DNA of 64,000 bases from a virus: positions 62,001-126,000 of the IMG/VR virus record IMGVR_UViG_3300048924_000100. One strand, given 5' to 3'. Below are positions 25,918 to 64,000 of the stretch, in pieces (positions within the stretch are counted from its first letter, which is position 1; each line of letters opens with the position of its first letter). A program made the position numbers and the translations under genes. The notes under the pieces are model-generated. The model was given only the letters and a program-made list of their open reading frames with translations. It made no database searches and was not told the origin of the DNA.

Positions 25918-28900
25918 ATGGAAACAGTTGACAGTGACAACACGGCAAAAGACAGTACGTTAAAGTTTGCAAAAGAGTTGATGAACTACCTGGGTGCACA
26001 GAACCTCCCCAAGGAACTTATCGACGACCGCAAGAAACGAGTGGACTGGGAGAAGCGCACTGATGATGAGTTGGTCATGGCGCACTTCGACGAAGACAGC
26101 TTGTCCAAGATCAAGACGGTTCGTTTCCTCAAGGACTTTGCCCGCTACAAAGCACAGCCTGACCGTACTACCAAGAACACCAGCTTCTTGCGGACAGCAG
26201 AGATCTTCCGTCAGCAGGGGATCAAGAACTACTACTTCCTCCTGCAACTGAACAACCCGGCTTTGATCGGGGTAGACCCGTATGACGAGAACTTGACCAA
26301 CGAACAGAAGGTCATGATCATGCACGAATCGGAGACCAACTTCTGGTACTTCCTTCGTGAGGTGTGTAAGCTCCGGGCTGACCGTCAGTTCTTAGCGAAC
26401 CGGGGTAACATCAGTTTCATCTGGAACTACCTGAACCACATTACCCAGTACATGATCATGCCTCGTCAGCAGGGCAAGTATCAGGATGACAACAACAAGG
26501 TTCGTATCGCTACGGCTAACGGTAAGGTGAACGAGCCTAAGGACGCCTGGGTACGTATTGGTGACCTTAAAGCGGGTGATGAGGTTATCGACCGTTATGG
26601 CAAGAAGTGTACAGTTATCGGTATCCATCCTCAGGGTATCAAACGACTGTACCGGGTTTACGCCAGCGATGGTCGTTATGTGGACGCGGGCCCTGAGCAC
26701 CTCTGGACGCTGGCTGACCACAGCCGTAAGGTGAACGATGATCCGATCTGGGATGACTACACCACTGCAGAGATGATTGACAAGCTCAAGTCTGATGTGA
26801 TCCTTGAGTTTCCGTTGATCGAAGCCGAACAAGGGGTTGCTAAAACCCTGGCGATTGATCCGTATGTGATGGGTACCTTGATTGGTGGCCAACGTATCGG
26901 TGGGTTCATTCTGATCAAGAAGGTTTCTGAAGCGGCTGATGCTTGGATTGAAGAGAACCTGCCTGAAGGTCTTGAGCTGGTTAAGAAGGGCAATCGTCGT
27001 GAGATCCATTCGACAGACGAGAATGTCAAGATTACCTTCGATCCAGACATGGGTGTGCCGTCGCACTACCTGGAAGGTGCTCTGTCAGATCGCCTGGCGC
27101 TCCTACAAGCGTTTCTGGACCAAGGAGCCATCGGTGAGGAGGGTGTGGTCTACAACACCACTAGCAGGCTTGTAGGCGGTCATGTTCAATACCTGGCGCG
27201 TGGCTTGGGTGGTACTGCTTCCAAATCGAGTAACAAGATCACCGTAACCCTGCCGCATTCGATGGCGTTGTTTAAGTACAAGCATGTCGAGGACGAGTTC
27301 GTTTATCAGAACCAACTGTTTGTGGAACGCATCGAGTATCAGGGCGAAGCACCTTGCACCTGCATCGAGGTCGACAACGAGGATCACCTCTACGTCACTG
27401 ATGACTTCCTGGTCACTCACAACACCGTGTCGGTACAGGTTATTGCTTTCTGGCTGACGTACATCATGGGTCGGGGCTACAAGTCTCACCTGGTAACGCT
27501 GAAGTCGGATAACCGGGCTCAGTTCATTGACGCAATCAAGAAGATCCGAACGTGTCTGCCGAAGTACCTGGTTAACCCAACTTGGAAGGACAAGGATGCG
27601 GGTAACTACCTGACGTATAAAGCGTTTGGGGAGGAGCACGTGAACACCCTGACCATCTCAGTACCCCAGATGGGCGAAGACGCCGCAGGCGACCTTGGAC
27701 GGGGTCTCACGGTAGGTACCACGAACTACGACGAGCCAGGTTACATCAACTGGATCGAGGCGATCATCAACGGATGCTCTCCTTCTGCTTTGACAGAGAT
27801 GGAGATTTGTCGTGACAGCGGCATTCCTTACGGGATCAGTTATATCACGACACCGAATACGACCCTGCATCCAAGTGGTGCATTCATGTTCGAGAAGTTG
27901 ATGACATCGACCGAGTGGCGTGAGAAGTTCTTCGACTCGTACAGCGAAAGTCATCTGAAGATGCGCTTGCTTAAAGCCTCTCCGAAGAAGACCACCTCGC
28001 CTTCTGTGGCCCTTGTGTATAACTACCTGCAACTGGGTAAAGACAAGGCCTGGGTACGGGAGACTATCGACAGCCTCAACCTCAGCCTTGCTAAGGCGAA
28101 GATCGACTTGCTCCTCATGTGGGTTGAAGACGGTGAGAACCGTGTGTTCGACGACGTGACGCGTGAAGCGATTAACAACGTTAAGCGGGATAAGGTTTGG
28201 AGTAAGGAGTATCGTGACACGGGTCTGTTTATCGACTTCTTTGTCACGCAGCAAGAACTGCTAGAGATGGCGAAGAAGAGTTATAATGACTTCTTCCTCA
28301 TTGGGGTGGATACCTCGTCGGCTATCAACAAGGATGCCTGTACGCTGATCATCCGCAGTATCAAGACCGGTAAGGTCATTGGGGTGGGTCGTTATCAGTT
28401 GGCGTTCCTGGATGACGTGACGGGCATTATCGTCGACATGCTGACTACCTTCGAGAACAGCCTGTTGGTGATTGAGCGCAACTATGCTCACCACATGATC
28501 GACAACCTGCTGGTGATGCTGCCAGCTAAAGGGATGGATCCATTCACTCGAATCTACAACACGGTCTTCCAAGATCCTGTTAACCATTCGAAGGAATATG
28601 AGGCAGTTCAGAACACCAAGTTTGCTCACCGCAGTAAAAGCTTCTACCTGAAGTACAAACAGTTCTTCGGGTTCGTCACCACCCAGACATCGCGTCAAGT
28701 GCTGTACGGGCTGATTCAGGAAGCTGTGGGTAACACGGGGTATGGTCTGAACTACGACAGGCTTGCTGACGAGCTTATCAACCTCAAGACGCGGGGCGAT
28801 CGAATCGACCACGATAGCAAACAGCACGATGACTTGGTTATCGCCTGGTTGTTGACTTACTGGTTTATCAAGCTGGGGCAGAACAAGCCGATGTACGGGA

Positions 28901-29211
28901 TTCCTACCGGGATTGCGTTGTCGGAAACTCGTAACCTGCTGGACGCTGGTAAGAACCGCAATGCTCCTGAAGTCGATCCAAGTATTGTCTCGTTTATGGA
29001 CAACATCAGGAAGCGTGTACAGAAGCTTACAGATGAGTTGTTGAACACCAACGACAACATCCTGGCCATGCGACTGGAAGCCGAGATCAACAAGCTCAGC
29101 AAACTGCTTCCGGTTGAGACGGCTAAACTTCTTACCGTGGATACCTTAATCGAAACAGCTAAGCTTGAGCGTGCCAAGCGGATGCTCAGAGAACGTAAAC
29201 GTGCTGCGTAA
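25918..29211 (+). CDS. Terminase large subunit (phiKZ gp25-like), interrupted by an in-frame intein
   Basis: 1097 codons; removal of the 315-aa intein (residues 188-502) leaves 782 aa. The ATPase P-loop reads PRQQGK (182-187), and the next extein residue is T503, which restores GKT. A YDEPG segment shortly after is the likely Walker B. The C-terminal RNase H-like nuclease shows GVDTSS with D798, VIERN and HDDLVIAW, the three acidic positions expected for metal binding. The enzyme pumps DNA into the prohead and cuts it. It is followed by a PL7-like gene. The upstream region 25870-25917 is AT-rich (TTATATTTATTTTTTGATAT) and may hold a promoter. Confidence 0.93.
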   Translation: METVDSDNTAKDSTLKFAKELMNYLGAQNLPKELIDDRKKRVDWEKRTDDELVMAHFDEDSLSKIKTVRFLKDFARYKAQPDRTTKNTSFLRTAEIFRQQGIKNYYFLLQLNNPALIGVDPYDENLTNEQKVMIMHESETNFWYFLREVCKLRADRQFLANRGNISFIWNYLNHITQYMIMPRQQGKYQDDNNKVRIATANGKVNEPKDAWVRIGDLKAGDEVIDRYGKKCTVIGIHPQGIKRLYRVYASDGRYVDAGPEHLWTLADHSRKVNDDPIWDDYTTAEMIDKLKSDVILEFPLIEAEQGVAKTLAIDPYVMGTLIGGQRIGGFILIKKVSEAADAWIEENLPEGLELVKKGNRREIHSTDENVKITFDPDMGVPSHYLEGALSDRLALLQAFLDQGAIGEEGVVYNTTSRLVGGHVQYLARGLGGTASKSSNKITVTLPHSMALFKYKHVEDEFVYQNQLFVERIEYQGEAPCTCIEVDNEDHLYVTDDFLVTHNTVSVQVIAFWLTYIMGRGYKSHLVTLKSDNRAQFIDAIKKIRTCLPKYLVNPTWKDKDAGNYLTYKAFGEEHVNTLTISVPQMGEDAAGDLGRGLTVGTTNYDEPGYINWIEAIINGCSPSALTEMEICRDSGIPYGISYITTPNTTLHPSGAFMFEKLMTSTEWREKFFDSYSESHLKMRLLKASPKKTTSPSVALVYNYLQLGKDKAWVRETIDSLNLSLAKAKIDLLLMWVEDGENRVFDDVTREAINNVKRDKVWSKEYRDTGLFIDFFVTQQELLEMAKKSYNDFFLIGVDTSSAINKDACTLIIRSIKTGKVIGVGRYQLAFLDDVTGIIVDMLTTFENSLLVIERNYAHHMIDNLLVMLPAKGMDPFTRIYNTVFQDPVNHSKEYEAVQNTKFAHRSKSFYLKYKQFFGFVTTQTSRQVLYGLIQEAVGNTGYGLNYDRLADELINLKTRGDRIDHDSKQHDDLVIAWLLTYWFIKLGQNKPMYGIPTGIALSETRNLLDAGKNRNAPEVDPSIVSFMDNIRKRVQKLTDELLNTNDNILAMRLEAEINKLSKLLPVETAKLLTVDTLIETAKLERAKRMLRERKRAA
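26479..27423 (+). mobile_element. Class-3-type intein in the terminase P-loop, with decayed homing endonuclease domain
   Basis: The 315-aa insert lies exactly between K187 and T503 of GK^T. The first residue is Tyr, not Cys/Ser/Ala. Block A-like DAWVRIGDLKAGDEV is present. Block B reads GPEHLW with Trp at the class 3 position; block F reads TCIEVDNEDHLYVTDDFLV, and block G ends VTHN followed by Thr. This is the WCT set of class 3 inteins, which use the block F Cys as nucleophile. The middle has LAGLIDADG-like remnants (YVMGTLIGGQR and LLQAFLDQGAIG), but both catalytic acidic residues appear lost or shifted, so homing activity is probably gone. Confidence 0.9.
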
Positions 29212-29231
29212 CCCAACTCCCTGGAGAAACC

Positions 29232-29912
29232 ATGTCTGTTGACATCACCAAGTTCCTCATTGCTACACCACTGCCCGTTTCGGATACCAATCCGGTGGCA
29301 CTTGAACTCATGGGCGATTTGGCTCTAATTCAGTGTCCGGAAGTTATCTCGTTACTGGAAGGTGGCGCTGTGAGGTTTACCGCTCCTACCCAAGGAGCTT
29401 CCAGCAAAAGCACCAAACGCACTCGCTGTGAATGGAAGGAACCTGAGTACTGGGCTCTGGCTAGTGCTGCGCGACATTGGAGTCGTCAAGAGATTACACT
29501 TGAGAAAGTCAACTCAGCGCAGAAGGTAGTTATCGGGCAGATCCATGTCAAAGACGCTACCACTCCTCCGCTGAAGGTGTTCTGGAACAAGGGCAAGATC
29601 ACCATCGGGTTTCGTCGTAGCTTTGCCAGCCCTGATATCGTCAACACTGTGATCCATAACAGCGTACCTTTGGGTGCTACGTTTAAACTCAGTATTGGCG
29701 TGACCTCTAACGGGTCGGTATCGATCAACGTCCTGTGCAATGGCGTGCCGTCGATCAAGCTGTCCTGGAAACTGGATGACACTTGGCAAGATCAGGTGCT
29801 TCAGTTCCATGGCGGCTTGTACAACCAGATCGATTATGCCGATGATACTCCAGCAGAAGACGGATCAGTGACTGTGATCTCTGAACTGACGGTTACCCAC
29901 GGCGCTGTGTAA
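29232..29912 (+). CDS. Polysaccharide lyase family 7 (alginate-lyase-fold) protein (226 aa)
   Basis: The three PL7 signature strands are present in order: RCEWKE at 65-70 (family RSELRE), QIH at 103-105 (family QIH), and FHGGLYNQ at 192-199 (family YFKAGxYNQ). The putative catalytic Arg65, Gln103, His105 and Tyr198 are all kept. PL7 enzymes cleave alginate by beta-elimination in a jelly-roll cleft. There is no signal peptide, as expected for a virion-carried or lysis-released enzyme. The position directly after the terminase gene suggests a late gene, possibly tail-associated. Alginate is a Pseudomonas exopolysaccharide, so this fits the host. Substrate is inferred, not shown. Confidence 0.82.
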   Translation: MSVDITKFLIATPLPVSDTNPVALELMGDLALIQCPEVISLLEGGAVRFTAPTQGASSKSTKRTRCEWKEPEYWALASAARHWSRQEITLEKVNSAQKVVIGQIHVKDATTPPLKVFWNKGKITIGFRRSFASPDIVNTVIHNSVPLGATFKLSIGVTSNGSVSINVLCNGVPSIKLSWKLDDTWQDQVLQFHGGLYNQIDYADDTPAEDGSVTVISELTVTHGAV

Positions 29913-29931
29913 TTCCCCATCAACCGACCAT

Positions 29932-29970
29932 AACCCTACCCTGGCCTTACGGCTGGGGTAGGGGTGGTTT
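29932..29970. terminator. Terminator between convergent units
   Basis: CCCTACCC (29934-29941), with inner TGGCC/GGCTG, pairs with GGGGTAGGG (29955-29963). It lies between the rightward PL7 gene and the leftward 143-aa gene. Confidence 0.75.
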
Positions 29971-29988
29971 AAAGAGATTTACATAAAA

Positions 29989-30420
29989 TTAAAACCACTC
30001 AGTGCGCTCAGTGATCACATTGAGTGTTGCTTCCATACAGGACAGTTGGGTTACCATCAGCTGTATTTCCCATTCAGTGACGTGGAACGGCTCCAGGTCA
30101 TTGATCTCTTGTTTCAGTGTCGCGATGTCATTCTCCAGTTGAACCTTCTTGGCGAAGACCCGTTGTTGCTCTGGAGTGTACTTACCCATGTTGCCCATTT
30201 TTAGGTAAGCATTTTCGTGCTGTTCTTTTGGCGCCCAGGAGATGTACCCCTGATGGTCCGGATGGTTTGGTTTCCCGCCATCCAAGTATTCGACCAAATA
30301 GCCCTGATCGCCGCCATCTTCGTCAGCGGGGAGTTCCCATCCCCGATAGCTAATGTACTCTTGGCGAGTCATAGCCTTTGACTTGACGATTTTCGTTCCT
30401 ACGAAGTGATGAAGAACCAT
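29989..30420 (-). CDS. Conserved-type phage protein (143 aa), function unknown
   Basis: Residues ~17-72 carry a module I have seen in many unrelated phages (TRQEYISYRGWELP, then GYLVEYLDGGKPNHP and GYISWAPKE), of unknown function. The C-terminal ~55 residues are a coiled-coil-like helix pair (Lys/Glu/Leu-rich). The start at 30420 (minus) has GGAGACC upstream. It is the last gene of a leftward unit. Confidence 0.8.
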   Translation of the reverse strand: MVLHHFVGTKIVKSKAMTRQEYISYRGWELPADEDGGDQGYLVEYLDGGKPNHPDHQGYISWAPKEQHENAYLKMGNMGKYTPEQQRVFAKKVQLENDIATLKQEINDLEPFHVTEWEIQLMVTQLSCMEATLNVITERTEWF

Positions 30421-30435
30421 AACTGGTCTCCGGTG

Positions 30436-31002
30436 TTATGAGTTAAGTAATGGGGTTACCTCCCAACCTTGGGTGTCACCCAGCGTGTAGTGCAGACATT
30501 TGAAACGCGACATGGCGTCACCCATGCGACATGCACGTTCAGAAAACCGTTCAGCGTAATCTTCAACGATGCAGTCCTCCCCAAGCTTATCGGCCAGGAT
30601 AACTCCGGCAGGATAAGCGACTCCGCCCAGGGATTGCAACATCTCGAGATTTTCCTTCAGCACTGTTTGAAACGAATCGATCTGGTAATCCATCCACCGC
30701 ATATCGTGGATGATCCCTCCCCGGACCAAAACGATCTCGTACTCTCCCAGTGCAGGAAGGAGTATCTCTTTGTAGAACTTTGAACGTGCATCAAGCAACG
30801 CTGCAATTTTTGCCTCGTTGCTTTTCTCAGGATGAGTAAGGACCAACCAGAGTTCCCGGTTGTCCAACAATGCATTTTCTCCGACGCCGACGTCAGAACA
30901 GATCCCGACCTTCTTACCTTGCAGGGTGAGTAGATCACTAAGTTTCGAAATACAAGCCGACACAGTTTGGTCTGACTGGCCATCAACGTTGAAGTAGTGC
31001 AT
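30436..31002 (-). CDS. Thymidylate-kinase-like protein lacking the P-loop (188 aa)
   Basis: The N-terminus (YFNVDGQSDQTVSACISKL) lines up with the real kinase at 13255 (FWVVDGLDGSGKTGLMDRI), keeping the strand-VDG-helix pattern but with QSDQTV in place of GSGKT. The middle and C-terminal helices have a similar layout, with an LVRGG segment near the place of DRY. It is probably a catalytically dead or repurposed relative; the relation is by eye and needs a profile search. It is 9 nt downstream of the 460-aa gene. Confidence 0.62.
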   Translation of the reverse strand: MHYFNVDGQSDQTVSACISKLSDLLTLQGKKVGICSDVGVGENALLDNRELWLVLTHPEKSNEAKIAALLDARSKFYKEILLPALGEYEIVLVRGGIIHDMRWMDYQIDSFQTVLKENLEMLQSLGGVAYPAGVILADKLGEDCIVEDYAERFSERACRMGDAMSRFKCLHYTLGDTQGWEVTPLLNS

Positions 31003-31011
31003 CGTTCCTCC

Positions 31012-32394
31012 TTACTCAAAGTAGTCCTTGCTCAGGATACGCAGCACGATGTAGAGACACAGTGCCGTGCGTACCAGTTGCACGGTTTGCTGGGTTTTTA
31101 CCCCAGTTTGTTCTTTGACGATTTCGTCACCAAGGGTTCGAATAACCTTGACGGTATCGTTCTTGCTTCGAGGGGCGCCGTAGGCGCCGCGCATCTTGAT
31201 CAAGACGTCGTACACGTTAGTTTTCTTAATACCATTGGTGTGCAGGTATTCAAACATGTGCTGGAGAACGGCATCCGCAAACTGTTTGTATTCCGGCTTC
31301 TTCGGGTTGTTGTACAGCTTCGGAAACTGCTGAATCACGTACGCCAACTTGTCACGGGGAGTACCCTCTAGGGCATCCGCTGAGTACTTGATCAGCTCGT
31401 CTTTGTAGAACGAGGTGTCCTCGGTGAGGATGCGATCAAGGTAGAGACCATACTGGGTGATCTCTTTGGTCTGAGACTTCAGCGCCAACTCATCGCCAAG
31501 GTTAACCTTTGCACCGTCGATACGCACGATGTTGGTTTTGTTCTTGACGTCGTGAAAGACTTTGTTGATGTCGTTAATCGCCCGACGCAAACGGTTCTGG
31601 ATATCCCCGACCATGTAGACGATTTTCTTGTCGTCATCCATTTTGCTGAAAGCGTCGTAGTGGATACCCGTCTTCGGGTTGATGATGAACTCAGCCCGAG
31701 CCTCGATCAGCATCCGCCAGCTACCGTAACGCTTGATGTCGTATTTCAGACTCAGGCGGTTGTAGGTTTCCAGCACCACTTCTTTCCGTGCCATAAACGG
31801 ATAGTCGTTGTGGATGATCGAAGTCAAACACTTGTAGTGGTACATCGACAGGATATCGATCAGGGCCTGGTGTTTGGTATCCTTGCTCAGGCTTGAACGG
31901 TTAACCCGGTACAGCAGGTAGGGAATGGTCAGGTTGAAGGTATCGCCCACAACACTCCATTCCTTGTTCACCGCTTTGGCTGCGTGCAGGTTTTCCTTGA
32001 GTTCCTCTTCGTCAACGTCGAAGATCTCAGAGAACCACTGGTTACGGTCAGCCGTGGTGAAGGTGATCTTGTGCAAACCGAGATACGGAGAACCAAAGAA
32101 CTCCATATGGCTGACCACGCCCACACTTCGAGTTACGAACGAGTAGACGTAGCGACGCAGCACCTTGGCCCACTTCTCATCAACAACCAGGAAGTCACCA
32201 AACTTGTTGCAGATGTCCAGGATGGCGTGGTTACTGTCGAAGTCAATGCCCGACAGCAACGCCTCAGTACCCGTAACCGATTGGATCTCATGCGGATCCA
32301 TCGGAAACAGATACAGCCCATCTTTGGCCAGGATTGAGTGATCTTCCATGCCTTCAAACAAACTGAAGATCGACGGTTCAAGAAACGATGTCAT
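31012..32394 (-). CDS. Protein of unknown function (460 aa), possible virion protein
   Basis: A helical, charged protein without catalytic motifs; the C-terminal ~25 residues are moderately hydrophobic. The start overlaps the stop of the upstream 281-aa gene by one base, so the two are coupled. In style (length, charge, leftward orientation) it resembles the 377-aa gene at 42352. No family recognised. Confidence 0.75.
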   Translation of the reverse strand: MTSFLEPSIFSLFEGMEDHSILAKDGLYLFPMDPHEIQSVTGTEALLSGIDFDSNHAILDICNKFGDFLVVDEKWAKVLRRYVYSFVTRSVGVVSHMEFFGSPYLGLHKITFTTADRNQWFSEIFDVDEEELKENLHAAKAVNKEWSVVGDTFNLTIPYLLYRVNRSSLSKDTKHQALIDILSMYHYKCLTSIIHNDYPFMARKEVVLETYNRLSLKYDIKRYGSWRMLIEARAEFIINPKTGIHYDAFSKMDDDKKIVYMVGDIQNRLRRAINDINKVFHDVKNKTNIVRIDGAKVNLGDELALKSQTKEITQYGLYLDRILTEDTSFYKDELIKYSADALEGTPRDKLAYVIQQFPKLYNNPKKPEYKQFADAVLQHMFEYLHTNGIKKTNVYDVLIKMRGAYGAPRSKNDTVKVIRTLGDEIVKEQTGVKTQQTVQLVRTALCLYIVLRILSKDYFE

Positions 32395-33239
32395 CAGAAT
32401 CTCCTTGGTACGGAACGACGAACGGCGTCGGTTACCCGCTGACGGTCACTGTAGGCCATCCGCTTGGTCCATTCACCGGTGAGGTATTCGTGGTAATCTT
32501 TCCAGGCATCACGATACTCCATGATGTCATCCTTGATGTCGCTCAAGGAAACACCGCTACGGATAATCGCTTCCTGGGTAGGGCGACGGCAGGAACGGTA
32601 GATGTATGCCTTGACTGCCAGTTCTACCAGATGAGCAAAGTGTTCGTGTTGGCGCGTCGAAATACTGCTCAGGCCTTCATCGAACTCCAGGATCATCTTG
32701 GCTGACATCGAGTAAGTACCCGAGTTCAAACCAAAGATCACAAAGCAGTTGTTACCCGTCATGTGGATGTTGTTGTAGGTCACCGGCATCTGACGGTTAG
32801 AACTGAGGCTGTCGATCAGCGCCTCGGTCATGTCCGTGATAGAACCCTGACCACACATGTCGTTGGTGTTGGTACTCATCCCCAACATACCCGTCGACGA
32901 AGTCATCGAACCCAGGTAGATCTCGGTTACCGAAATGATCTTGCGACCACCGGTGACGATATCGGGTACGTTCACTTCAATGCAGGCGTTACCCAAGTCG
33001 CGGATACGCGCTCCGCTCAGATCGATCAACTCGGTCTTACCGCCGTTGGCATTACAAGCCGGCAGTACCGTACGGTGAATCACTTTTTCGCGAATGCCTT
33101 GTTCCACTGTGGTGTGGTTAACGAGGTTGTACCAGTTGCCTGCGAAGTTACCGTTGGGTGATTCGAAAGCCAACTTCAAGAGGTAATCGTCGATGTCACA
33201 ATTGGTGACCCGATTGATGGCGTAATCCACCGCGTTCAT
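32394..33239 (-). CDS. Protein of unknown function (281 aa), possible virion protein
   Basis: The start at 33239 (minus) has CAGGAG upstream. The middle (residues ~90-175) is Gly/Ser/Thr/Asn-rich and beta-like, while the C-terminal ~110 residues are helical and Arg-rich. No enzymatic motif. It is the first large gene of the leftward unit whose leader is the hairpin-dense region 33290-33480. Confidence 0.75.
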   Translation of the reverse strand: MNAVDYAINRVTNCDIDDYLLKLAFESPNGNFAGNWYNLVNHTTVEQGIREKVIHRTVLPACNANGGKTELIDLSGARIRDLGNACIEVNVPDIVTGGRKIISVTEIYLGSMTSSTGMLGMSTNTNDMCGQGSITDMTEALIDSLSSNRQMPVTYNNIHMTGNNCFVIFGLNSGTYSMSAKMILEFDEGLSSISTRQHEHFAHLVELAVKAYIYRSCRRPTQEAIIRSGVSLSDIKDDIMEYRDAWKDYHEYLTGEWTKRMAYSDRQRVTDAVRRSVPRRF

Positions 33240-35622: not shown

Positions 35623-36621
35623 ATGAATGCAAATACTTCGGATCTGGCATACTTCCTCTGCGGTGGTACCGGTATTAACATCGGCGTGGCTCTGAAAAAG
35701 GGTACTCACACCGACAACAACAAAAACGCTTTCTTCGTCGGTCTGGATTCCTCGGATCGTAACAGCTCCGGCGACTTGTTCGAAGTTGTGCAGATGGCCG
35801 TTGCCAACGACCCTGACCAGAAGGCCAAGGGTTCGGGTAAAGTCAAAGCAACCAACTACCCACAAGCTGAACAGTTCATCAACCAGTTCCTGACCAAGCA
35901 CAAGCCACGTGATTACAACATCATCGTCTGCTCCACCGGCGGTGGTACTGGTTCGATGCTGGCTTTCGTTCTGGCGCGCATGCTGTTCGAACGCGATCAA
36001 CTGGTCGTGCTGTGCTTCATCAACGACAAGACCTCGCAGGTTGAAGAGATCAACGTCGTGAACAGCTACCGTTCGTACGCGTCGCTGACCACTCCTGGTT
36101 CGCTGAACCGCGTGGTTCCGTACATGGAGTTCGACAACACCCTGACCAACACTCGTGGTGAAGTCAACCAAATGGTCATCGACAAGCTCGATGTGGCCAG
36201 CCTGTTCCTGAGCAACGTCAACAAGGAACAAGACCACACTGACATGAAGAACCTGCTGAACTTCAGCAAGCACTACGGCGTTCCACCGTCCATGTCGCGT
36301 ATTCGCTTCTACGACGAGAAAGGTGTTGCAGACTTCAAGGGCAAGGTGCCGGTTGCAGTCTCTTCCCTGTTCGAAAGCAGCGATGCAGTCATCCCACGTT
36401 TCAACGGCACCGTGATCCGTTCCACCGGCGTGTTCGCTGACGGCGTTAAGCGTCCAAGCAACGCCCAGGAACTGCACATGGTCCTGGACCACGGCGAAGC
36501 TCTGAAAGAGCTGGAGAAACACATCGAAGCAATGGAAACCCGCAAGGTTGAAACTTCGTCGACCTTCACCCAGCAGAAAGATCTCTCTGCCGGTGCGGAT
36601 GACAAAGGCTTCTTCATGTAA
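35623..36621 (+). CDS. phuZ: PhuZ, phage tubulin/FtsZ-like GTPase
   Basis: 332 aa, near the usual ~315-325. The tubulin signature loop reads STGGGTGSM at residues 104-112 (tubulin GGGTGSG), with a T1-type loop CGGTGINIG near residues 13-21. PhuZ polymerises into a bipolar spindle that centres and rotates the phage nucleus and carries capsids to it. The C-terminal ~25 residues are a flexible tail as in known PhuZ proteins. C-ending codon bias and the early promoter at 35542 fit early, abundant expression. A terminator follows at 36641. Confidence 0.95.
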   Translation: MNANTSDLAYFLCGGTGINIGVALKKGTHTDNNKNAFFVGLDSSDRNSSGDLFEVVQMAVANDPDQKAKGSGKVKATNYPQAEQFINQFLTKHKPRDYNIIVCSTGGGTGSMLAFVLARMLFERDQLVVLCFINDKTSQVEEINVVNSYRSYASLTTPGSLNRVVPYMEFDNTLTNTRGEVNQMVIDKLDVASLFLSNVNKEQDHTDMKNLLNFSKHYGVPPSMSRIRFYDEKGVADFKGKVPVAVSSLFESSDAVIPRFNGTVIRSTGVFADGVKRPSNAQELHMVLDHGEALKELEKHIEAMETRKVETSSTFTQQKDLSAGADDKGFFM

Positions 36622-43485: not shown

Positions 43486-43789
43486 AGTAGTTATCCGAAA
43501 CAAATGATGGGGATGTAAGAATAAAGTATTACTGCAATCTCCTATCTTATGTGAACAAGTCACATCAGAGGAAGTGTCCTCTACTGGGGACCATTGCGCA
43601 ATTCGAGAATTAGTGATATGATTAGAAGTTGATTACTCTATATCATCCCTGCTGAAAAGTAGGGTGATTTCAGTGGGGTAAGAAAATTTCAAACCCATAT
43701 TACCAATGTGATTAGTAATACAGATGTTCCACATCGGTAAAGATAATCACGCTATAGCAAACTATCTTCGTACACAAGGAAAACAACTC
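43486..43789. promoter_or_regulatory. Divergent control region upstream of chimallin
   Basis: A 304-nt gap without a gene. It contains the AATCTCCTATCTTATGTGAAC motif (43536-43556; 19 of 21 nt as at 35040), overlapping a dyad ATGTGA-acaag-TCACAT, a GC-poor stretch, and the early promoter at 43687. Confidence 0.65.
43687..43704 (+). promoter_or_regulatory. Early promoter of the chimallin gene, ATTTCAAACCCATATTACC box
   Basis: Matches the early consensus; followed by AATGTGATTA, shared with the promoter at 14826. About 86 nt upstream of ATG 43790. Confidence 0.78.
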
Positions 43790-45808
43790 ATGAGTCTGAA
43801 TAACGGTTCCGAAAGCACCTCCTGGAACGAAAACAACGAAAAGCCGAACTCCAATCAGGCTCCAGGCGCCTCGGGCACCATGGCTCCTCTGGACGGTCTG
43901 GCTGGTCTGCTGCGTCTGCCGTCGATGACGAGCGATAACCGCAACCTGAAAGAGGTTAGCGAAACCATCGAGAAACTCGAGGCGATCTACGAGAACGCCA
44001 AGAAATCCACCACCAACGAACTCCAGCGCAAAATCGTTCCGACGGTTGAAATGCTGACTCCGTCCATCTCGGCTCAACTGCCAGGTGTCGGCCTGTACGT
44101 CGTCTTCGACGGCACCATGTACGTGATGGCTGCTCTGTTCTACAACCGCACGCTGAGCATCGGCGTAGAGCGCATCACCGTCAACACCAACAACATCGTC
44201 CAGCAGATGTCCGCGCCACTGACTCCAGCTCAGTACCCGAACAGCCTGTTCCTGGAAAAGCTGACCTCGCACTACACCAAGGTTGCCGAAGCCCTGGGCG
44301 TGAAGAACGTCAGCGTGATCAACATGATCGTTTGCGATCTGGAAATGCTGCACCACGCAGAAGCCGGCGATCCGAAAGACTACGCCCACCGTCAGGCGAA
44401 CTACATCGCCTCCGAGTGGGAAGAAGCGATCATGGTCAAGACCGTGCGCGAAATCGTGGGCAAGGGCTACCAAGTTCCGGTTCCGTTCGCTACTCCTGAT
44501 CAGCCGTACGGCAAAGATGGCTGCGCCGAAGCTCGCGTTAACGCAATCGCTTTCCGCACCAGCAAGGCCGGCACTCTGACTCCGGACAACATGGAAGTTA
44601 TTGTTAGCACCATCAACAATAACAACCAGAACACCGGCAACTTCCAGGCCAACTCGAAAGAGCTGATCCGGGTTACTGGTGCGGTCAGCCTGAACGGCGT
44701 GTCGTGGGAAGATCACCAGCGTTTCATGATGTCGCACCGCTCGCAAGAGCAAATGAACTCGCTGCAACAGTTCCTCGGCAACAGCATGGGCATGGGCGCA
44801 TACCCACAAGGCTTCAAGCCACTGCGTCCAGTTATCACCATCGGCACCGTGCAAGCTGGTGAGCAACTGTGCAACAACGGCGGCCTGTTCCCGTTCTTCA
44901 GCGGCCTGTACGCGCTGATGGCGACGAACAACCAGTACGTCTGGTCTGAAGCTCTGCGTCGTCACTCGGTAGGTGCTCGTGGTAACCTGGCCGACCTGGA
45001 AACTCGTGTTGATCAAATGGTCAGCCAGATCCCAGGCGGTTTCCAGAACCCACAACGCATCCGCCTCGACGAGAAGAAGATGTCGGACACCGAGCTGGTT
45101 AACAACTGGATTCGCCAGAACGTTAGCCCGCACGCAACCTTCCAGATCAACCTGATCCCGGCAGGTCCGAACGCGTCCATCAACAACTTCTTCTTCCAGC
45201 TGGCCAAGGTCGGTCAGAACGCCGCTGAAATCAAGGTAGTCATCGCTCTGATCGACTCCATGACCAAAGGCGCGTTCTCGGAAGTGATCCGCGGCAACGT
45301 TACCTCGCAACAAGGTTGGGTGCCTTCCAAGCCAGTGCTGATCCCGACTGGCATGATCGCAGTCAACGGCATGGCTGAATACGCCGGCAAGAAGTTCAAC
45401 ACCCAGGAACTGGACGAGATGATGATCTCGCACATCAAGGGCCCGAAAGGTCAGCTCGCAGCCGAAAGCCTGCTGTCGACCATGTACGGCACCATCCCGG
45501 GTGAGGAATTTAAACAGCGGGCACAAAAGCTGCGCGTGGAAACCTCGTCGTCGCTGTTCGACGGTCAGGTTCACATCAACGGCTGGGCTCAGCCTCACAT
45601 CTGGGCGCCTGACTTCATGGCCGCCATGTCGAAAGCCATGGACACCATCGGTCAGCTGAACGTTGCCAACAACCTGGGCAGCTGGCGCAACACCAGCCTG
45701 GCTTCGACGCCTGGCATCGGTCTGGCTACCCTCGTGGGCGCTGGTTCGAACAACGCGACCGGCAACGGTCTCGGTGTTGCATACAACATGAACATGCCAT
45801 TCATGTAA
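43790..45808 (+). CDS. chmA: Nuclear shell protein chimallin (phiKZ gp54-like)
   Basis: 672 aa; ATG 43790 has AAGGAAA upstream. The protein has a low-complexity, probably disordered N-terminus (~40 aa, Ser/Asn/Pro-rich) and a Gly/Asn/Met-rich C-terminus, with a large folded centre and no enzyme motif. Known shell proteins (631 aa in 201phi2-1 gp105) have flexible terminal segments that link subunits into the nuclear lattice. The call rests on the early promoter, the strongest codon bias in the window, size, and position directly upstream of the beta-prime N-half gene, the phiKZ gp54-gp55 order. Chimallin is among the most abundant early phage proteins and encloses the replicating DNA. Confidence 0.82.
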   Translation: MSLNNGSESTSWNENNEKPNSNQAPGASGTMAPLDGLAGLLRLPSMTSDNRNLKEVSETIEKLEAIYENAKKSTTNELQRKIVPTVEMLTPSISAQLPGVGLYVVFDGTMYVMAALFYNRTLSIGVERITVNTNNIVQQMSAPLTPAQYPNSLFLEKLTSHYTKVAEALGVKNVSVINMIVCDLEMLHHAEAGDPKDYAHRQANYIASEWEEAIMVKTVREIVGKGYQVPVPFATPDQPYGKDGCAEARVNAIAFRTSKAGTLTPDNMEVIVSTINNNNQNTGNFQANSKELIRVTGAVSLNGVSWEDHQRFMMSHRSQEQMNSLQQFLGNSMGMGAYPQGFKPLRPVITIGTVQAGEQLCNNGGLFPFFSGLYALMATNNQYVWSEALRRHSVGARGNLADLETRVDQMVSQIPGGFQNPQRIRLDEKKMSDTELVNNWIRQNVSPHATFQINLIPAGPNASINNFFFQLAKVGQNAAEIKVVIALIDSMTKGAFSEVIRGNVTSQQGWVPSKPVLIPTGMIAVNGMAEYAGKKFNTQELDEMMISHIKGPKGQLAAESLLSTMYGTIPGEEFKQRAQKLRVETSSSLFDGQVHINGWAQPHIWAPDFMAAMSKAMDTIGQLNVANNLGSWRNTSLASTPGIGLATLVGAGSNNATGNGLGVAYNMNMPFM

Positions 45809-57369: not shown

Positions 57370-57415
57370 GCGGGCTGGGGATATCCCCAGCCCGCAATAC
57401 CCTTTCTTTTTAAGC
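57370..57415. terminator. Palindromic terminator between convergent genes
   Basis: GCGGGCTGGGGAT (57370-57382) is followed directly by its perfect complement ATCCCCAGCCCGC (57383-57395); TTTCTTTTT follows on the plus strand. Confidence 0.88.
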
Positions 57416-57739
57416 TTTTACTGTATTGGCTCTGGCTATGGCTTTGTTCAGATCGCTCTCGTTGATCAACTGAAACGAGTGAAGGTTGGACACATCCTGA
57501 TTGGGATCAATGATGTCGTTAATATACGCTGTGGCCCAACGCAGATGCGCAGGAACATTCATCGACCGCATTACCCGATAGAAGTCAGTGCGGAAGGCAA
57601 ACAGCATCGCACGGTCTACGATTGGGATGGTCTGAGAACCACGCAGCAGTATTTCTTTTTCAGAGCGTACTAGAATCTTGAAGGCATCGGTATAGAACAG
57701 CTCTTTACCGTTGTCAGCTTCATTGTTTGGAATTGGCAT
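57410..57739 (-). CDS. Small protein of unknown function (109 aa)
   Basis: The ATG at 57739 (MPIPNNEAD) has GGAGAGG just upstream; an earlier in-frame TTG at 57751 overlaps the ribosome binding site and is unlikely to be the start. The product is helical with a basic middle. It is the only leftward gene between rightward RNAP-related genes. No family recognised. Confidence 0.68.
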   Translation of the reverse strand: MPIPNNEADNGKELFYTDAFKILVRSEKEILLRGSQTIPIVDRAMLFAFRTDFYRVMRSMNVPAHLRWATAYINDIIDPNQDVSNLHSFQLINESDLNKAIARANTVKA

Positions 57740-57811
57740 GGTCCTCTCCAAGCTAAATGTTAACTGGCTGCCCCATCCTTTATTGCTATAAGCGATATGG
57801 CAACCCTAATA

Positions 57812-57830
57812 AAACTTAAACCTATATCAT
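57812..57830 (+). promoter_or_regulatory. Early-type promoter, ACTTAAACCTATATCAT box
   Basis: Weakest of the six consensus matches (TATATCAT core). It is overlapped by a split inverted repeat: CTTAAAC (57815-57821) and CTTGAT (57831-57836) pair with ATCAAGTTTAAG (57862-57873). Confidence 0.62.
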
Positions 57831-57892
57831 CTTGATGAATGGGTAGTCAGATCTCTTTGTAGATCAAGTTTAAGATAATAGGAGAAAGCATT

Positions 57893-60169
57893 GTGAGTAA
57901 GAAAGAGATAGATTCTCCTGTCGTGGTACCTGAGGTAGGATTGGGAAGATTCAAGAAATGGGCCTACCTCGGCGAAAACCAACTGCACCCAGCGGTAATG
58001 GGTGTTTGTGCAAACTTGGTTGTGTTCCCATGGGTATCGTCACCTACCCGTATTTACATGGTGGGCAACATGATCCCGAAGTCGGTTGTTACTTCGGGTG
58101 CCAGTGAGCGCAAACTCAAAACCGGTAACGAATACCAGTACGCCGAAACAACTCGCTGCATCAAAGCACCATCGAACATGATCATCGAGGAAATCTTCTA
58201 CGCTCAGTCCATCAGTGGCGGGGAAGGTGACACCGATAAATGGGCTCCGGTGTATGTGGTGTTCCGTAACGAGGAAAAGGGCAAGTACGATATCCTGGAA
58301 TTCCCACGGTATAACGTACAGAACTCTTACGTCGGGTTCGAATATGTCTACGACATGAACGTCATGCGCAAACTGCGTAAAGGCGCTGTGTTCGCTAAAG
58401 GTACCATCTTCGCCAAGTCACCTCGCGTCAGTAAAGATGGCGAGTGGATGTTCGGTATGGACCTCAAGGTTGCGCCAGCTTCCTTCCACTATACCGAGGA
58501 GGACGGCATCGGCATCACTGAGACCTGTGCGCGTGAGAAACTGCGTTGCATGTTTGAACATGTGCGTGCTCACGGTTGGAACGAAGACGAGTGGATCCCT
58601 CTGACACTGTACGGAGAGAACCCATTCCCACAGAGTGGCGAACGTATTCGTGAAGACGGTATCGTCATGGGTTTCCGTCGTCGTATCTCTGCTAACGCTC
58701 TGGTGTCGTTGACCAAGAAAGCTTTGACCATCCCTGATGAAACACACGACATCCTGTTCAGGGCGCCGGTGGATTCTGAAGTGATGTCTGTTGAAGTCAT
58801 TTCTGAACGCATGAAGAACAAGGCGAACAACCGTTCGACTGATTACATCAAACAGGCCCACACCAATATGCTGGAGCGTTATGAACGCCGCCAGAATGAC
58901 ATGTGGAACGAGGTGATCCGTTGGCACAGTGGTCGCGTAGCGGCTAACCGTGGTAACGACATTGCCATGACCCGTCCTCTGAATCGGTTCATCCGCTTCG
59001 CTAAGGGCAACTTCACGATCAACCCTAACACCGGTAAGCCTAACCCGCTGTTCCGTGCAGTCAAGCGCGTACGCGTTAAAGACTGGAGTGTTACCATCCG
59101 CCTGCGTGAGATCGTTTCTGGTCGTGCCAAGTTCAAGATGTCCGGCATGAACGGGGACAAAGGTGTAATCGTTCGGATTATTCCAGACGAAGATGCACCG
59201 CGTTATGATGACGGTACTGTGTGTGACGTGGTTGTTAACAACACACCAGCCTTCCGTCGTCAGATCTTCTCGATGCTGATGGAACAGTCGATCAACTTCA
59301 TTAACATTAATATCCACAAAGAAGTGGTGCAATGTCATAAAGAAGGCGACTACGTAACAGCAATGGAAAAGCTGATGCTGTTCTACGAGACTGGGTTCCC
59401 AGAGTTCGCAGAGCTGGTACAGCAGACCATGGTGACCCGCGAGGACATCGTCGAGTACGTCAACGAGATCGTGGCTACTCAGATCAGTGTGCATGTGCGC
59501 AGCGACACCAAGCTGTATGGCGTTGAGATTATCAAAGCCTTGCGTAAGGTCTACAGCTACAAGCCAGAGCACATCACCTTCCGGGATTCCCTCGGTGAGA
59601 TGGTGCGGTCGGTTAACCCGGTACTGATCACCCACCAGCACTTCATGCTGTTGGACAAGTTCGGTACTGACATGTCGGCTCAGTCGCTGCCAATGTCTAA
59701 CCCGTTCGGTATGCCAGCCAAACTTAACGAAGCCAACAAGTACTCCAGTTGGTTGCGGATGGTCTGGAACCGTAACAAGGGTGAAACGGAAGCACGTCTG
59801 TCACTCAGTCAGACTGGGGCAAAGGAAACGGTCAAGCAATTGGCCATGGGTTACGCTCCTGAACTCCGTACGCGGATGGCACAGCGTATTGTTCGGGCTG
59901 ACGATGGGTTTAACATCAACCAGATCATCAAGCCTGAAGAGTATGGGTTGAACCGGGCAGTGCAAATGTCGCAGAGCATGCTCAGTGACTCCGGTTATAC
60001 CTTGCGTCGTGAACTGCCAACGGATCGTTCTGATTATGAGGCGCCTGACGTAATGATCCCGCGTGAACGTATGGACGAACCTTTGGCGGGTGGCAAGACT
60101 GTTAACCCAGCCGGGCTCCGAGCAGATGATGAGTTCGAGAAAGAGTTTTTGCATAAGGAGATTGTGTAA
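57893..60169 (+). CDS. RNA polymerase beta subunit, C-terminal half (non-virion RNAP, phiKZ gp71-73-like)
   Basis: 758 aa; GTG 57893 follows TAGGAGAAAGC. Residues 406-435 read RLREIVSGRAKFKMSGMNGDKGVIV, the beta motif 'GDKxxGRHGxKG' region that holds the active-site lysines (K416 and K423 equivalents), then a PDEDAP segment for the 'PxxDMPY' motif. Phylogenetically split beta subunits of this kind are specific to phiKZ-like phages. It joins directly to the beta-prime C-half gene (start codon overlaps the stop by one base). In phiKZ this position is gp71-73; no intron is visible here. Confidence 0.88.
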   Translation: MSKKEIDSPVVVPEVGLGRFKKWAYLGENQLHPAVMGVCANLVVFPWVSSPTRIYMVGNMIPKSVVTSGASERKLKTGNEYQYAETTRCIKAPSNMIIEEIFYAQSISGGEGDTDKWAPVYVVFRNEEKGKYDILEFPRYNVQNSYVGFEYVYDMNVMRKLRKGAVFAKGTIFAKSPRVSKDGEWMFGMDLKVAPASFHYTEEDGIGITETCAREKLRCMFEHVRAHGWNEDEWIPLTLYGENPFPQSGERIREDGIVMGFRRRISANALVSLTKKALTIPDETHDILFRAPVDSEVMSVEVISERMKNKANNRSTDYIKQAHTNMLERYERRQNDMWNEVIRWHSGRVAANRGNDIAMTRPLNRFIRFAKGNFTINPNTGKPNPLFRAVKRVRVKDWSVTIRLREIVSGRAKFKMSGMNGDKGVIVRIIPDEDAPRYDDGTVCDVVVNNTPAFRRQIFSMLMEQSINFININIHKEVVQCHKEGDYVTAMEKLMLFYETGFPEFAELVQQTMVTREDIVEYVNEIVATQISVHVRSDTKLYGVEIIKALRKVYSYKPEHITFRDSLGEMVRSVNPVLITHQHFMLLDKFGTDMSAQSLPMSNPFGMPAKLNEANKYSSWLRMVWNRNKGETEARLSLSQTGAKETVKQLAMGYAPELRTRMAQRIVRADDGFNINQIIKPEEYGLNRAVQMSQSMLSDSGYTLRRELPTDRSDYEAPDVMIPRERMDEPLAGGKTVNPAGLRADDEFEKEFLHKEIV

Positions 60170-62163
60170 TGGCCTTGCAAATTAGTCTACGGGAGTTTGC
60201 CAACCTGCCTGAACACCAGGTACTGCGTTGGCGCGGTTTCCGTATGGCCGTTGAGGTCACGGACGACCACGGTGAGAAAGTAAAGAGTGACACCTATGCC
60301 ATGCTGTTGACTTGGCAAGGTATGATGATCCACCGAGCTTACAACGATGTACCGTACTCGGTGAAAGAGATCATCCCCACCGGCAAGAGCGTCGTGTATA
60401 ACAACAAGACGCTCGCCATTCCAATGAACTGGATCATGGGAGAGATTGGTCCTAACATCCACGATCCAGTGGCGTGGGATGCAATCAAGATGACCATTCA
60501 CATGTGGCAGACCAAGTTGAATAACTTGATCGTAGTCATGAGTGAGACGTCGGTCATCTCTGCCATGGCGGAGTCGGTAGACGACCTGATTGAAGATCCG
60601 GGTATCCGCGAGATCCATCGCAAGGTACTGGATAAGGAAGTCACGATCGACGAAGGTGAGGACTTGTTCTCGGACTACCTCAAGACGTCTGAGACGTTGG
60701 ATTACAACACGGTAGCTCTGTTGGCACGTACTGGTGGCGTGAGTATCAACCAGGCTTATCAGACGGCGATCATTCGAGGGGCAGTATTCGACCTCGATAA
60801 CACCATTATGCCAAACGCTGTAATGGCGCGCTACGCTGATGGTGTAACCAACTTGGCAGATGCCATTGGCGATAACCGTGGTGCAGGTAAGGCACTGAAC
60901 AGTAACGGCCGTGCACTGAAAGACTCGGAATGGTTTCACCGGAAGATTCACTTGTTCACGGCGATCATCCATTCCATCAATCACATGCACGACTGTGGCT
61001 CGCTTGACACCGTGCCTGCGCGCATTGCGTCGACTGAGATGGCCAAGAGCCTGCTCGGCAAGTATCGCGTCCTAGACGACGGTACAGTTGATCTGATCAG
61101 CGTTAGAAACGTTAAGACGATCAAAGCCGGCGATCTGGTTAACCTACGCAGTGTGGCGTTCTGTAACAGTCCTCTGGGTACTCCGTGTGGCGTTTGTTAC
61201 GGATCGATGAAGTCTGCGATCCCGTACAACCGGATGATGAAGAAAGATGCAAACGTTGGTATGTTTGCTGGCACCACGATCTGTAACCCATTGGGTCAGA
61301 AAATGTTGTCAACCAAACACTTCATCCGAAACGCTACCAGTAAGAAGTTCGTACCACACCACCGCGACAAGGAGATCATCAATTCCAACGGTGACCAGAT
61401 CTTCCTTGACAAAGATCTGTGTAAGGAGGGCACGCGACTGATTCTCCGGTCAACCATTGTGAAAGATTTGTCTGACTTGCGTTCCTTGGACATCATGGAC
61501 GAGATCGCGCTCAGCAAGTTGCCTTACTTTGGTGAAGTGACCTTCCAGTATGAGGTGGAAGACATTATGGTGGGCGGTACCACCACGCAGCAACACCCCG
61601 CACAGACCTCGGTATCTTCTCGCCGTGCCCGCTTTTCTATGGGATTTCTCCAGTATATACTGGACCATGGCTGGACCATGCAGGACAAGAAGTTCATCTC
61701 AGTGGACCTCTCCAAGTGGAACAGCAAAGACCCGATGTTCGTGTTGCCCTATGTTCGTGAGGACTTGGACGCACACCGTGCTCGGGTGGAAAACTTCCTT
61801 ACGTTCAACAAACGTAATGCGGCGTGGAAGAAACAGGTCGTTACTCCTAAAGTCTTCGGCGAAGTACTTGCGGAGTTCTGGACGTTGATCGATGCTGAAA
61901 CTAAAGGCATCAACATGATTTACGTCGAGGTCATTCTGGCCTGTGCACTGACCAAGAATCCAGCAGGGCATTCGTACAAGCTGGCAACGGGTCCTGGTGA
62001 GAAATACTTCACCAGCTTTGTAACTTGCGTGGACAACCGTGGTTCGGGAACAACGGCAATCTTTGAACGCCAGCAGAACATCCTGAACCTTCCGAAAACC
62101 TTCGCGGTTAAAGACCGTCAATCAAGTGTACTGGAATGTTTCCTCCAGCATGCGGTGTCATAA
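60169..62163 (+). CDS. RNA polymerase beta-prime subunit, C-terminal half (non-virion RNAP, phiKZ gp74-like)
   Basis: 664 aa; ATG 60169 overlaps the preceding TAA. Cys332, Cys340 and Cys343 in CNSPLGTPCGVCYGS match the second beta-prime zinc cluster (E. coli CxTDxGVCxxCYG). NVGMFAGTTICNPLGQKMLSTKHF (split here as NVGMFAG, then CNPLGQKMLSTKHF) is the 'xVGxxAxxxxGEPGTQxTxRxFH' trigger-loop region, with the Glu and first Gly changed. Together with 45902 and 57893 most of the non-virion RNAP is in this window; only the beta N-half (gp123-type) is missing, unless 3-4139 is that part. Confidence 0.88.
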   Translation: MALQISLREFANLPEHQVLRWRGFRMAVEVTDDHGEKVKSDTYAMLLTWQGMMIHRAYNDVPYSVKEIIPTGKSVVYNNKTLAIPMNWIMGEIGPNIHDPVAWDAIKMTIHMWQTKLNNLIVVMSETSVISAMAESVDDLIEDPGIREIHRKVLDKEVTIDEGEDLFSDYLKTSETLDYNTVALLARTGGVSINQAYQTAIIRGAVFDLDNTIMPNAVMARYADGVTNLADAIGDNRGAGKALNSNGRALKDSEWFHRKIHLFTAIIHSINHMHDCGSLDTVPARIASTEMAKSLLGKYRVLDDGTVDLISVRNVKTIKAGDLVNLRSVAFCNSPLGTPCGVCYGSMKSAIPYNRMMKKDANVGMFAGTTICNPLGQKMLSTKHFIRNATSKKFVPHHRDKEIINSNGDQIFLDKDLCKEGTRLILRSTIVKDLSDLRSLDIMDEIALSKLPYFGEVTFQYEVEDIMVGGTTTQQHPAQTSVSSRRARFSMGFLQYILDHGWTMQDKKFISVDLSKWNSKDPMFVLPYVREDLDAHRARVENFLTFNKRNAAWKKQVVTPKVFGEVLAEFWTLIDAETKGINMIYVEVILACALTKNPAGHSYKLATGPGEKYFTSFVTCVDNRGSGTTAIFERQQNILNLPKTFAVKDRQSSVLECFLQHAVS

Positions 62164-62180
62164 CTCGAAGTCCTCCTTAG

Positions 62181-62212
62181 GGGGGACTTCGGTCCCCCTT
62201 TAATGTTTTTGA
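62181..62212 (+). terminator. Intrinsic terminator with UUCG loop
   Basis: GGGGGAC (62181-62187), TTCG, GTCCCCC (62192-62198), followed by TTTAATGTTTTT. Confidence 0.85.
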
Positions 62213-62223
62213 GGCTTTTTGGT

Positions 62224-64000
62224 ATGAGGCATTCCGCCACTTTATCCTCAGGTCACACCTACCTGCGTATCTTTGGGTATTACGGCGATTTCTGTGCAAA
62301 GGTTATTATTCCTTTCTGCCGTGCTCATTTGTACAAGACTGGTAAGGTTCCATTGCCGGGCACCAATAAACAGGTGTGGAAAGTGACTCACGTGTTCGCT
62401 CAGTCTAACCACGACAAAACTGAGTACCGAATTCCTGTTAGTTTAATGAAAGAGTTCCTGGAGTTTGCACAGTACCGGGGCTACAATACTGCTCGTATTG
62501 CTATTGAAACAGAACCTGAGATCGAAGGCGTAGACTGCGAGTTCGAGTTACGTCCCGAAATGTCCACACCTCTGGCTGAACAAGAGGAATGGATTGAGTA
62601 CCAGTTAGCAGAAGGTGCGATCAAGATCAACAACGCCCCTACAGGCGGTGGTAAGGCTCTGGCTAACGATACACCGGTTAGAACTGTACACGGCTGGCGC
62701 CCTATTGGTCAGATCAAGGTTAACGATCTGGTCATGGCTCCTGACGGCTCCCACACGTACGTTACAGGCGTTTTCCCACAAGGCAAGACCAAGACCTTCC
62801 GTCTGACGTTTGAAGACGGCAGGAACGTTGTAGCGTGCCCTGAGCATCAATGGGAAGTGCGTGCTGAAGGCGAGACCGAATGGCAGGTATTGACAACACA
62901 GCAGTTAGTGGACAGTCAGAAGAATTGGCAGATTCCGCTGACCGCCAGTGAACGCAATGTCGATCGTGGTGATATCATCGATTCTTACTTAATCGGTAAG
63001 ACAGATCGTATCCTGGGTGAGAAGTATCTAGAAGGTTCCCATTCACAACGGATGGGGTTAATACGCGGCTTACTGGATAACACCGGTGAACCACAGCCTG
63101 ATGGATCGATCATCTTCCGGACTGAATACGGTATAACAGCCAAGATGGTTCGTGATCTGGTCCGCAGTATCGGTGGTATCGCCAAGGCAAAGTTTGAAAA
63201 CTTCAACAACGTGGTCTGGATTAAACACCGAACTCCAGAGATCCTGTTTACTGATGAGGACAAGGTAGACAAGCTGTGTGGGAGTGAGAACCGTGACCTG
63301 GGACTGAAGATCTCGGCTATTGTACCTGCCCTGCCCACACATACCACTTGCATCGCTGTAGAACACCCGTCACACTGTTTTGTGATCAAGGACTACCTGG
63401 TCACCCACAACACCTACATGAGCCTCTATACTGCCGTTAAGCTCGGTAAGCGGATCCTCATTACAGTGCAGCCACGTTACATCACCACCTGGATCAACGA
63501 CATCGAGAAAACGTTGATCGTCAAACCAGGCGATATCGTGGTGTGGGAGAACACGTCATTGCCATTACTGGGAGAGAACATCGAGAAGGGACTCATTAAT
63601 CCCAAGATCGTTATCGTTCCGTTCTCCCGGATCTCGGGGTACTTGCGCAATAGTCGTAAGGATCCAACCGCAGTACCGCTTGGCAAGATCTTTGAACAGA
63701 TCAACCCGGGTCTCCGTATTGTGGACGAGGGACATGAATCGTTCCACGAGATCTGTCTGTCACTGTTCCATGGCAACGTTAAGAAGTTGATTACCAACTC
63801 GGCTACATTGAGTGGTGATGATCCATTCATGAACCGGATGTACAACTTGATGCTGCCAATCAGTCTCAGGCTTAAAGAACCTGATCCTGAGAACTACATT
63901 GACATTGTCGCTTACATGTATCACTTGTGTCAGCGCAAGTTCTTCTTGAAGACAATGCAGTTCGGCAGCTACAACGACATGGCGTTGGAGGCGTCCATTC
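62224..64000 (+). CDS. SF2 helicase (phiKZ gp75/UvsW-like), interrupted by an intein; 3' partial
   Basis: The frame is open to the right edge of the window, at least 592 codons. ATG 62224 has TTGAGGC upstream. The extein begins with ~100 residues of beta-rich accessory domain, then motif I: PTGGGK (residues 139-144) joins T397 across the intein. Motif II is DEGH at 501-504 (nt 63724-63735), after the Walker-like VKLGKRILITVQP strand. DEGH and the T4 UvsW/Hel-type layout suggest a branch-migrating or ATP-dependent DNA helicase. Its position after gp74 matches phiKZ gp75. Confidence 0.85.
   Translation, partial: MRHSATLSSGHTYLRIFGYYGDFCAKVIIPFCRAHLYKTGKVPLPGTNKQVWKVTHVFAQSNHDKTEYRIPVSLMKEFLEFAQYRGYNTARIAIETEPEIEGVDCEFELRPEMSTPLAEQEEWIEYQLAEGAIKINNAPTGGGKALANDTPVRTVHGWRPIGQIKVNDLVMAPDGSHTYVTGVFPQGKTKTFRLTFEDGRNVVACPEHQWEVRAEGETEWQVLTTQQLVDSQKNWQIPLTASERNVDRGDIIDSYLIGKTDRILGEKYLEGSHSQRMGLIRGLLDNTGEPQPDGSIIFRTEYGITAKMVRDLVRSIGGIAKAKFENFNNVVWIKHRTPEILFTDEDKVDKLCGSENRDLGLKISAIVPALPTHTTCIAVEHPSHCFVIKDYLVTHNTYMSLYTAVKLGKRILITVQPRYITTWINDIEKTLIVKPGDIVVWENTSLPLLGENIEKGLINPKIVIVPFSRISGYLRNSRKDPTAVPLGKIFEQINPGLRIVDEGHESFHEICLSLFHGNVKKLITNSATLSGDDPFMNRMYNLMLPISLRLKEPDPENYIDIVAYMYHLCQRKFFLKTMQFGSYNDMALEASI
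62656..63411 (+). mobile_element. Class-3-type intein in the helicase P-loop
   Basis: 252 aa inserted between K144 and T397 of GK^T. The N-terminal residue is Ala. Block A-like ALANDTPVRTVHGWRPIGQI is present; block B reads CPEHQWEV with Trp in the class 3 position, block F reads TTCIAVEHPSHCFVIKDYLV, and block G is VTHN followed by Thr. The middle retains LAGLIDADG-type remnants (SYLIGK and LIRGLLDNTG) without the catalytic acids. It differs from the terminase intein at most positions, so it is not a recent copy. Confidence 0.88.

Follow-up and report, generated by a model that had tools for sequence, protein, structure and literature searches.

Class 3 inteins are recognised by a signature in which position 1 carries no nucleophile and a WCT motif is present (PMC3196547). 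Solved examples include DnaBi1 from M. smegmatis (6bs8), which is inserted in a P-loop, and DnaB-1 from M. chimaera (6rix/6riy). The Lys-Thr junction in the Walker A motif (GK^T) is already known as the classic P-loop intein site, and the mycobacteriophage TerL1-a inteins split the P-loop of the terminase large subunit (TerL) between its invariant Lys and Thr (Kelley 2016, PMC5050341). Whether inteins crowd into P-loops through conservation of the target or through selection for regulation is an open question (PMC5874633, PMC5050341). The inteins described here are a known kind of element at a known insertion hot spot. The literature that we searched (subscription papers, among them the original EL genome paper, fell outside its scope) held no description of the inteins of EL-like phages, and we make no claim to a first sighting. 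What we add is a third copy in the same genome, a near-universal GK^[T/S] rule for this clade, an exceptional non-ATPase host in EL, cases of direct transfer from gene to gene, and constraint on a dead endonuclease.

The window, by which we mean the whole 64,000-nucleotide stretch of DNA analysed here, corresponds to positions 62001-126000 of a virus record of 214,198 bases. Several RNA polymerase subunits, a nuclear shell protein (chimallin; window 43724-45808) and the tubulin PhuZ (35623-36621) were assigned in this phage using PHROGs. On the basis of this gene content, the phage is classed as a nucleus-forming jumbo phage. It is kin of Pseudomonas phage EL. Three class 3 inteins are encoded in its genome, two of them inside the window, and their hosts are TerL, a UvsW-like helicase and an SNF2-like helicase. 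Pfam gave no useful match for the phage's own inteins or for its TerL and helicase, and PHROGs and profiles were the informative sources. Two further Walker A motifs are intein-free, namely VVDGLDGSGKT in a kinase-like protein (window ~13282) and IEALTNRGKS in a DnaB-like protein (genome ~161777, minus strand).

The TerL gene (25918-29211, plus strand) matches the PHROG terminase large subunit (1.3e-40) and is split into exteins at 25918-26478 and 27424-29211, which are 73-80% identical to those of EL and RisingSun (79% for EL). Its intein of 315 amino acids (26479-27423, plus strand) was delimited by profile, signature residues and structure model. The Walker A motif PRQQGK (26461-26478) abuts the intein start and Thr +1 follows at 27424-27426, giving the junctions MPRQQGK / YQDDNN...FLVTHN / TVSVQ. 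The block B Trp, which is the first WCT residue (W76, 26704-26706), the block F catalytic Cys (C295, 27361-27363) and the block G Thr-His-Asn at the C-terminal splice junction (T313-H314-N315, 27415-27423) are invariant in our alignments. Both LAGLIDADG blocks are degenerate and lack the catalytic acid: block C reads PYVMGTLIGGQ (26860-26892) and block E reads LALLQAFLDQGA (27094-27129), with the core LQAFLDQGA. A profile of TerL inteins matches the solved class 3 inteins 6bs8, 6rix and 6riy (1e-9 to 1e-10), and in the AlphaFold model (pLDDT 93.8) both LAGLIDADG halves are kept in shortened form. Of 35 contig loci, 34 carry the intein, and pTD1 lacks it. The empty alleles of pTD1 and VP4B read PRQQGK-TVTAQ, and every TerL intein sampled from the EL-like clade has lost both LAGLIDADG acids.

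The UvsW-like SF2 helicase gene begins at 62203 on the plus strand and runs beyond the window end (64000), forming a 785-aa frame in the genome that matches the PHROG DNA helicase (6.3e-34). Here the Walker A motif PTGGGK (62638-62655) abuts an intein of 252 amino acids (62656-63411, plus strand), identified by signature residues and model, and Thr +1 is at 63412-63414. The junctions read APTGGGK / ALANDT...YLVTHN / TYMSL. Again the block B Trp (W66, 62851-62853), the block F catalytic Cys (C232, 63349-63351) and the block G Thr-His-Asn at the C-terminal splice junction (63403-63411, with Thr as T250) are invariant in the alignments. The first LAGLIDADG half-domain is mostly deleted, leaving SYLIGK as the block C remnant (62983-63000), and block E is degenerate (MGLIRGLLDNTG, 63052-63087; core IRGLLDNTG). 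The AlphaFold model (pLDDT 92.3) keeps mainly the second LAGLIDADG half, and its Foldseek matches include the class 3 inteins 6rix and 6bs8. This intein is also found in near relatives of the phage, and the empty allele of GXNNE2 reads TGFGK-TYMAI. An earlier note on this DNA had placed both inteins between the Walker A Lys and Thr, a claim that is borne out by the junction reads and by the empty alleles in relatives (pTD1 and VP4B for TerL, GXNNE2 for the helicase). Of the two outer positions that it gives, 26479 coincides exactly with the start of the TerL intein and 63411 with the end of the helicase intein.

The pair reported in that note is incomplete, as the same genome holds one further class 3 intein at GK^T, outside the window. 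It comprises 268 residues in an SNF2/RapA-like helicase (G000:C1:35221-36024, equivalent to L009:15221-16024, minus strand) and is endonuclease-dead by sequence, and EL has the same intein. None of the three inteins has Cys, Ser or Thr at position 1 (Tyr1 in TerL, Ala1 in the helicase and Ala1 in the SNF2-like protein), and all three end in VTHN/T, i.e., a terminal His-Asn followed by Thr +1. The WCT motif (Trp B:12, Cys F:4, Thr G:5) is present as W76/C295/T313 in TerL and W66/C232/T250 in the helicase, and the class 3 assignment made earlier for these two thus agrees with their signature residues. The inteins of TerL and the helicase are homologous (blastp 4e-15). Structure models, which were built from alignments of the window and contig loci, match the HINT fold of solved class 3 inteins (Z 19.4 and rmsd 1.5 over 123 residues against 6bs8_C), and their matches include class 3 mini-inteins as well as inteins with an endonuclease, PI-SceI and TliVMA. 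Active-looking relatives carry LGDG and LLDTDG, whereas the catalytic acids of blocks C and E are gone from all three inteins, so the sequence of a mobile LAGLIDADG homing endonuclease is not retained. The loss of the active acids that the earlier note had reported for the window's two inteins therefore stands, with blocks C and E degenerate or truncated. Judged by their residues, all three inteins have an intact splicing apparatus and a dead endonuclease, and are predicted to be no longer self-copying. Like DnaBi1 and M. chimaera DnaB-1, they combine the WCT signature and the absence of an N-terminal nucleophile with a HINT fold, and like DnaBi1 they interrupt a P-loop. Where DnaBi1 has only a linker, they have a LAGLIDADG region, catalytically dead yet folded, which the TerL intein retains and of which the helicase intein has lost half. 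The host genes differ too, encoding, instead of DnaB, TerL and SF2 helicases from a phage that forms a nucleus.

The insertion site was surveyed using the intein alignment, with no host gene, as the query against viral contigs and bacterial genomes. Among the resulting 160 loci (the best 80 matches per collection, near-copies included, with intein starts nudged by script to a nearby GK), 156 lie at GK|T or GK|S. The other four comprise two terminase Walker A variants, one masked locus and one insertion elsewhere in a helicase. The last of these (L245:2992-4113), a close relative of the inteins studied here, sits at QAL|T away from Walker A and is the only clear departure from the GK rule among the best 80 matches per collection. 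Across 19 related records and the phage genome, every intein with both junctions readable lies at GK^[TS]. When 53 host proteins were scanned with Pfam, many P-loop families with no relation to one another were named, among them the SNF2, DnaB, PhoH, RecD-type, Clp, AAA, ResIII, TraG and terminase families. GK^T/S is a near-universal site of this intein clade and is not peculiar to this phage. The TerL inteins found here are all at GK^T, matching the mycobacteriophage TerL1-a inteins in their insertion between the P-loop Lys and Thr of TerL, although those belong to other phages and another TerL lineage and further TerL sites are reported in the same study (PMC5050341).

The flanking DNA gave no indication of the shared homing site that the earlier note had suggested looking for. 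Flanks at the insertion sites are identical at only 10-14 of 30 positions, the common part is limited to the core GGNAAR|ACN, and the wobble positions are nearly without information (0.06 bit at -4 and 0.19 at +3). An extended shared DNA homing site was rejected on these grounds. The conservation of codon-fixed bases alone would also be seen if inteins inserted widely and survived, or spliced, only where Gly-Lys precedes and Thr/Ser follows; a splicing need for Gly-Lys at the junction gives the same pattern, and the endonuclease target is itself deduced from the occupied sites. We consider such a protein-level filter possible yet rather doubtful, as class 3 inteins of mycobacteriophages also occur outside P-loops (PMC5050341) and L245 occupies QAL|T; class 3 splicing can therefore proceed without GK.

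Related phages carry further alleles of these inteins. EL has class 3 inteins at the same GK^T sites in its TerL, helicase and SNF2-like genes, and differs from this phage in having a fourth, active-looking intein at AAGK^S in an RNA polymerase subunit, which is not an ATPase (L102:739-1836; NC_007623 45446-46543). The same subunit of this phage reads GAGK-A, with no Thr/Ser +1 and no intein. The RNA polymerase gene of GXNNE2 (L105) is intein-free and its extein DNA is 98% identical to that of EL; the helicase intein is likewise present in EL and absent from GXNNE2. We looked for co-conversion around these two EL insertions, and the neighbouring mismatches with GXNNE2 are scattered. A search of related records returned no class 3 intein match in pTD1 or AH04. 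This group of phages is a natural test of the P-loop question: inteins of one type occupy GK^T in TerL, in two helicases and in an AAA+ protein, as well as GK^S in a protein that is not an ATPase, and close relatives carry active-looking, dead and absent alleles. The EL RNA polymerase intein indicates that the site tracks local sequence and not ATPase activity, which weakens the idea that ATPase function is the reason for the site.

To characterise the history of the inteins, we compared intein and extein trees. TerL inteins from EL-like phages cluster as a single clade (support 100), and the TerL intein and extein trees concur on the main groups, indicating that the TerL intein has been inherited vertically with its gene through these phages. 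One locus departs from this pattern: the TerL intein of L015 (L015:4185-5000) groups with the clade of the present phage while its TerL groups with L016 and L018, possibly as a result of intein recombination or conversion. A single origin of all helicase inteins was rejected (p-AU 3e-122). The helicase intein of EL may represent a separate lineage, although a single clade with that of this phage was not rejected (p-AU 0.45).

The earlier note had proposed either independent homing or an old transfer between genes within one phage lineage. Gene-to-gene transfer inside one phage lineage is real in this group. In FishSpeaker, the intein of the helicase is sister to that of SNF2 (support 100/99); the two are 64% identical and mutual best matches. 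Less firmly, the helicase intein of Raoultella phage VB_ZK_P1 and an intein at GK^T in its BCS1-like AAA+ protein (L119:709-1809) pair in the wide tree (SH-aLRT 94, 61% identical), with the fork weak in a smaller tree. Given such cases, and the shared class and site, one intein might have been copied recently between TerL and the helicase in the present phage; we regard this as very improbable. The two inteins are only ~31% identical in their aligned N-terminal block, each clusters with inteins from the same gene in other phages, and a clade of these two inteins alone was rejected (p-AU 0.0008). The part of the earlier proposal that stands is an older event, as the test did not reject a shared ancestor for the TerL clade and the helicase intein of this phage (p-AU 0.12). 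The deep nodes joining the three inteins are weak and the tests gave p-AU values of 0.12 and 0.45; an old TerL/helicase transfer and independent homing may each account for the data.

Taken together, we think it likely that the three class 3 inteins reached GK^T through homing or ectopic copying directed at codon-fixed bases, followed by loss of the endonuclease. The survey shows that the site is shared because this clade occupies almost only Gly-Lys codons before Thr/Ser, in any gene. Entry was probably mediated by an endonuclease reading mainly GGN-AAR-ACN (or AGC/TCN), with its function lost afterwards; in this phage it is dead by sequence. The TerL intein has later passed vertically through EL-like phages; EL also has the SNF2 intein, and near relatives have the helicase intein. 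Until the intein is excised, the precursor ATPases would be expected to be unable to bind ATP normally. The intact residues predict the class 3 splicing route, in which the block F Cys attacks the N-terminal junction first, the N-extein then passes to Thr +1, and the terminal Asn undergoes cyclisation. The inteins most likely persist since they can be lost only by precise removal and donor alleles without them are scarce, although a regulatory use is possible.

The dead endonuclease region is under purifying selection and more constrained than simple decay predicts. Among near relatives, its dN/dS is 0.04-0.16 in TerL and 0.02-0.06 in the helicase, compared with 0.007-0.04 and 0.07-0.08 for the respective exteins, and in a wider, more saturated TerL set the value is 0.23; these values are rough, coming from few pairs with high dS, yet far below 1. 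The simplest reading of the constraint is that folding and splicing depend structurally on the remnant, and a second role of the region is possible. More speculatively, and with somewhat less than even confidence, the homing target may be the Walker A codons themselves (GGN AAR ACN/TCN/AGY, wobble ignored), such that one lineage invades almost any P-loop gene and accidentally a non-ATPase (the EL RNA polymerase), P-loop enrichment comes from targeting and not from selection for an ATP switch, and the dead endonuclease is kept in EL-like phages for a second role.

The inteins might instead act as a conditional switch, an option raised in the earlier note, with delayed or stress-dependent splicing timing the activity of the packaging motor and helicases during infection. 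Redox sensitivity is known for a class 3 intein in the P-loop of mycobacterial DnaB (PMC6195587), the TerL intein has come close to fixation across the EL-like clade, and the constraint on the dead endonuclease (dN/dS ~0.02-0.16) is compatible with a switch, although simpler readings of it exist. We nevertheless judge a switch unlikely, as relatives manage without these inteins (pTD1 and AH04, and GXNNE2 without EL's helicase intein) and the EL RNA polymerase intein indicates that the site requires no ATPase. A CxC motif beside the catalytic Cys, considered as a redox mark peculiar to the TerL inteins, proved non-specific: many TerL inteins have it and many lack it, and it occurs in 28 of 160 other surveyed class 3 inteins (best 80 matches per collection).

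In several public records (L053, L060, L058 and similar ones), these helicases and an RNA polymerase subunit are labelled 'terminase large subunit ... intein-containing' or 'DarB-like antirestriction'. These labels are also attached to intein-free proteins, and the names have probably spread through intein similarity.
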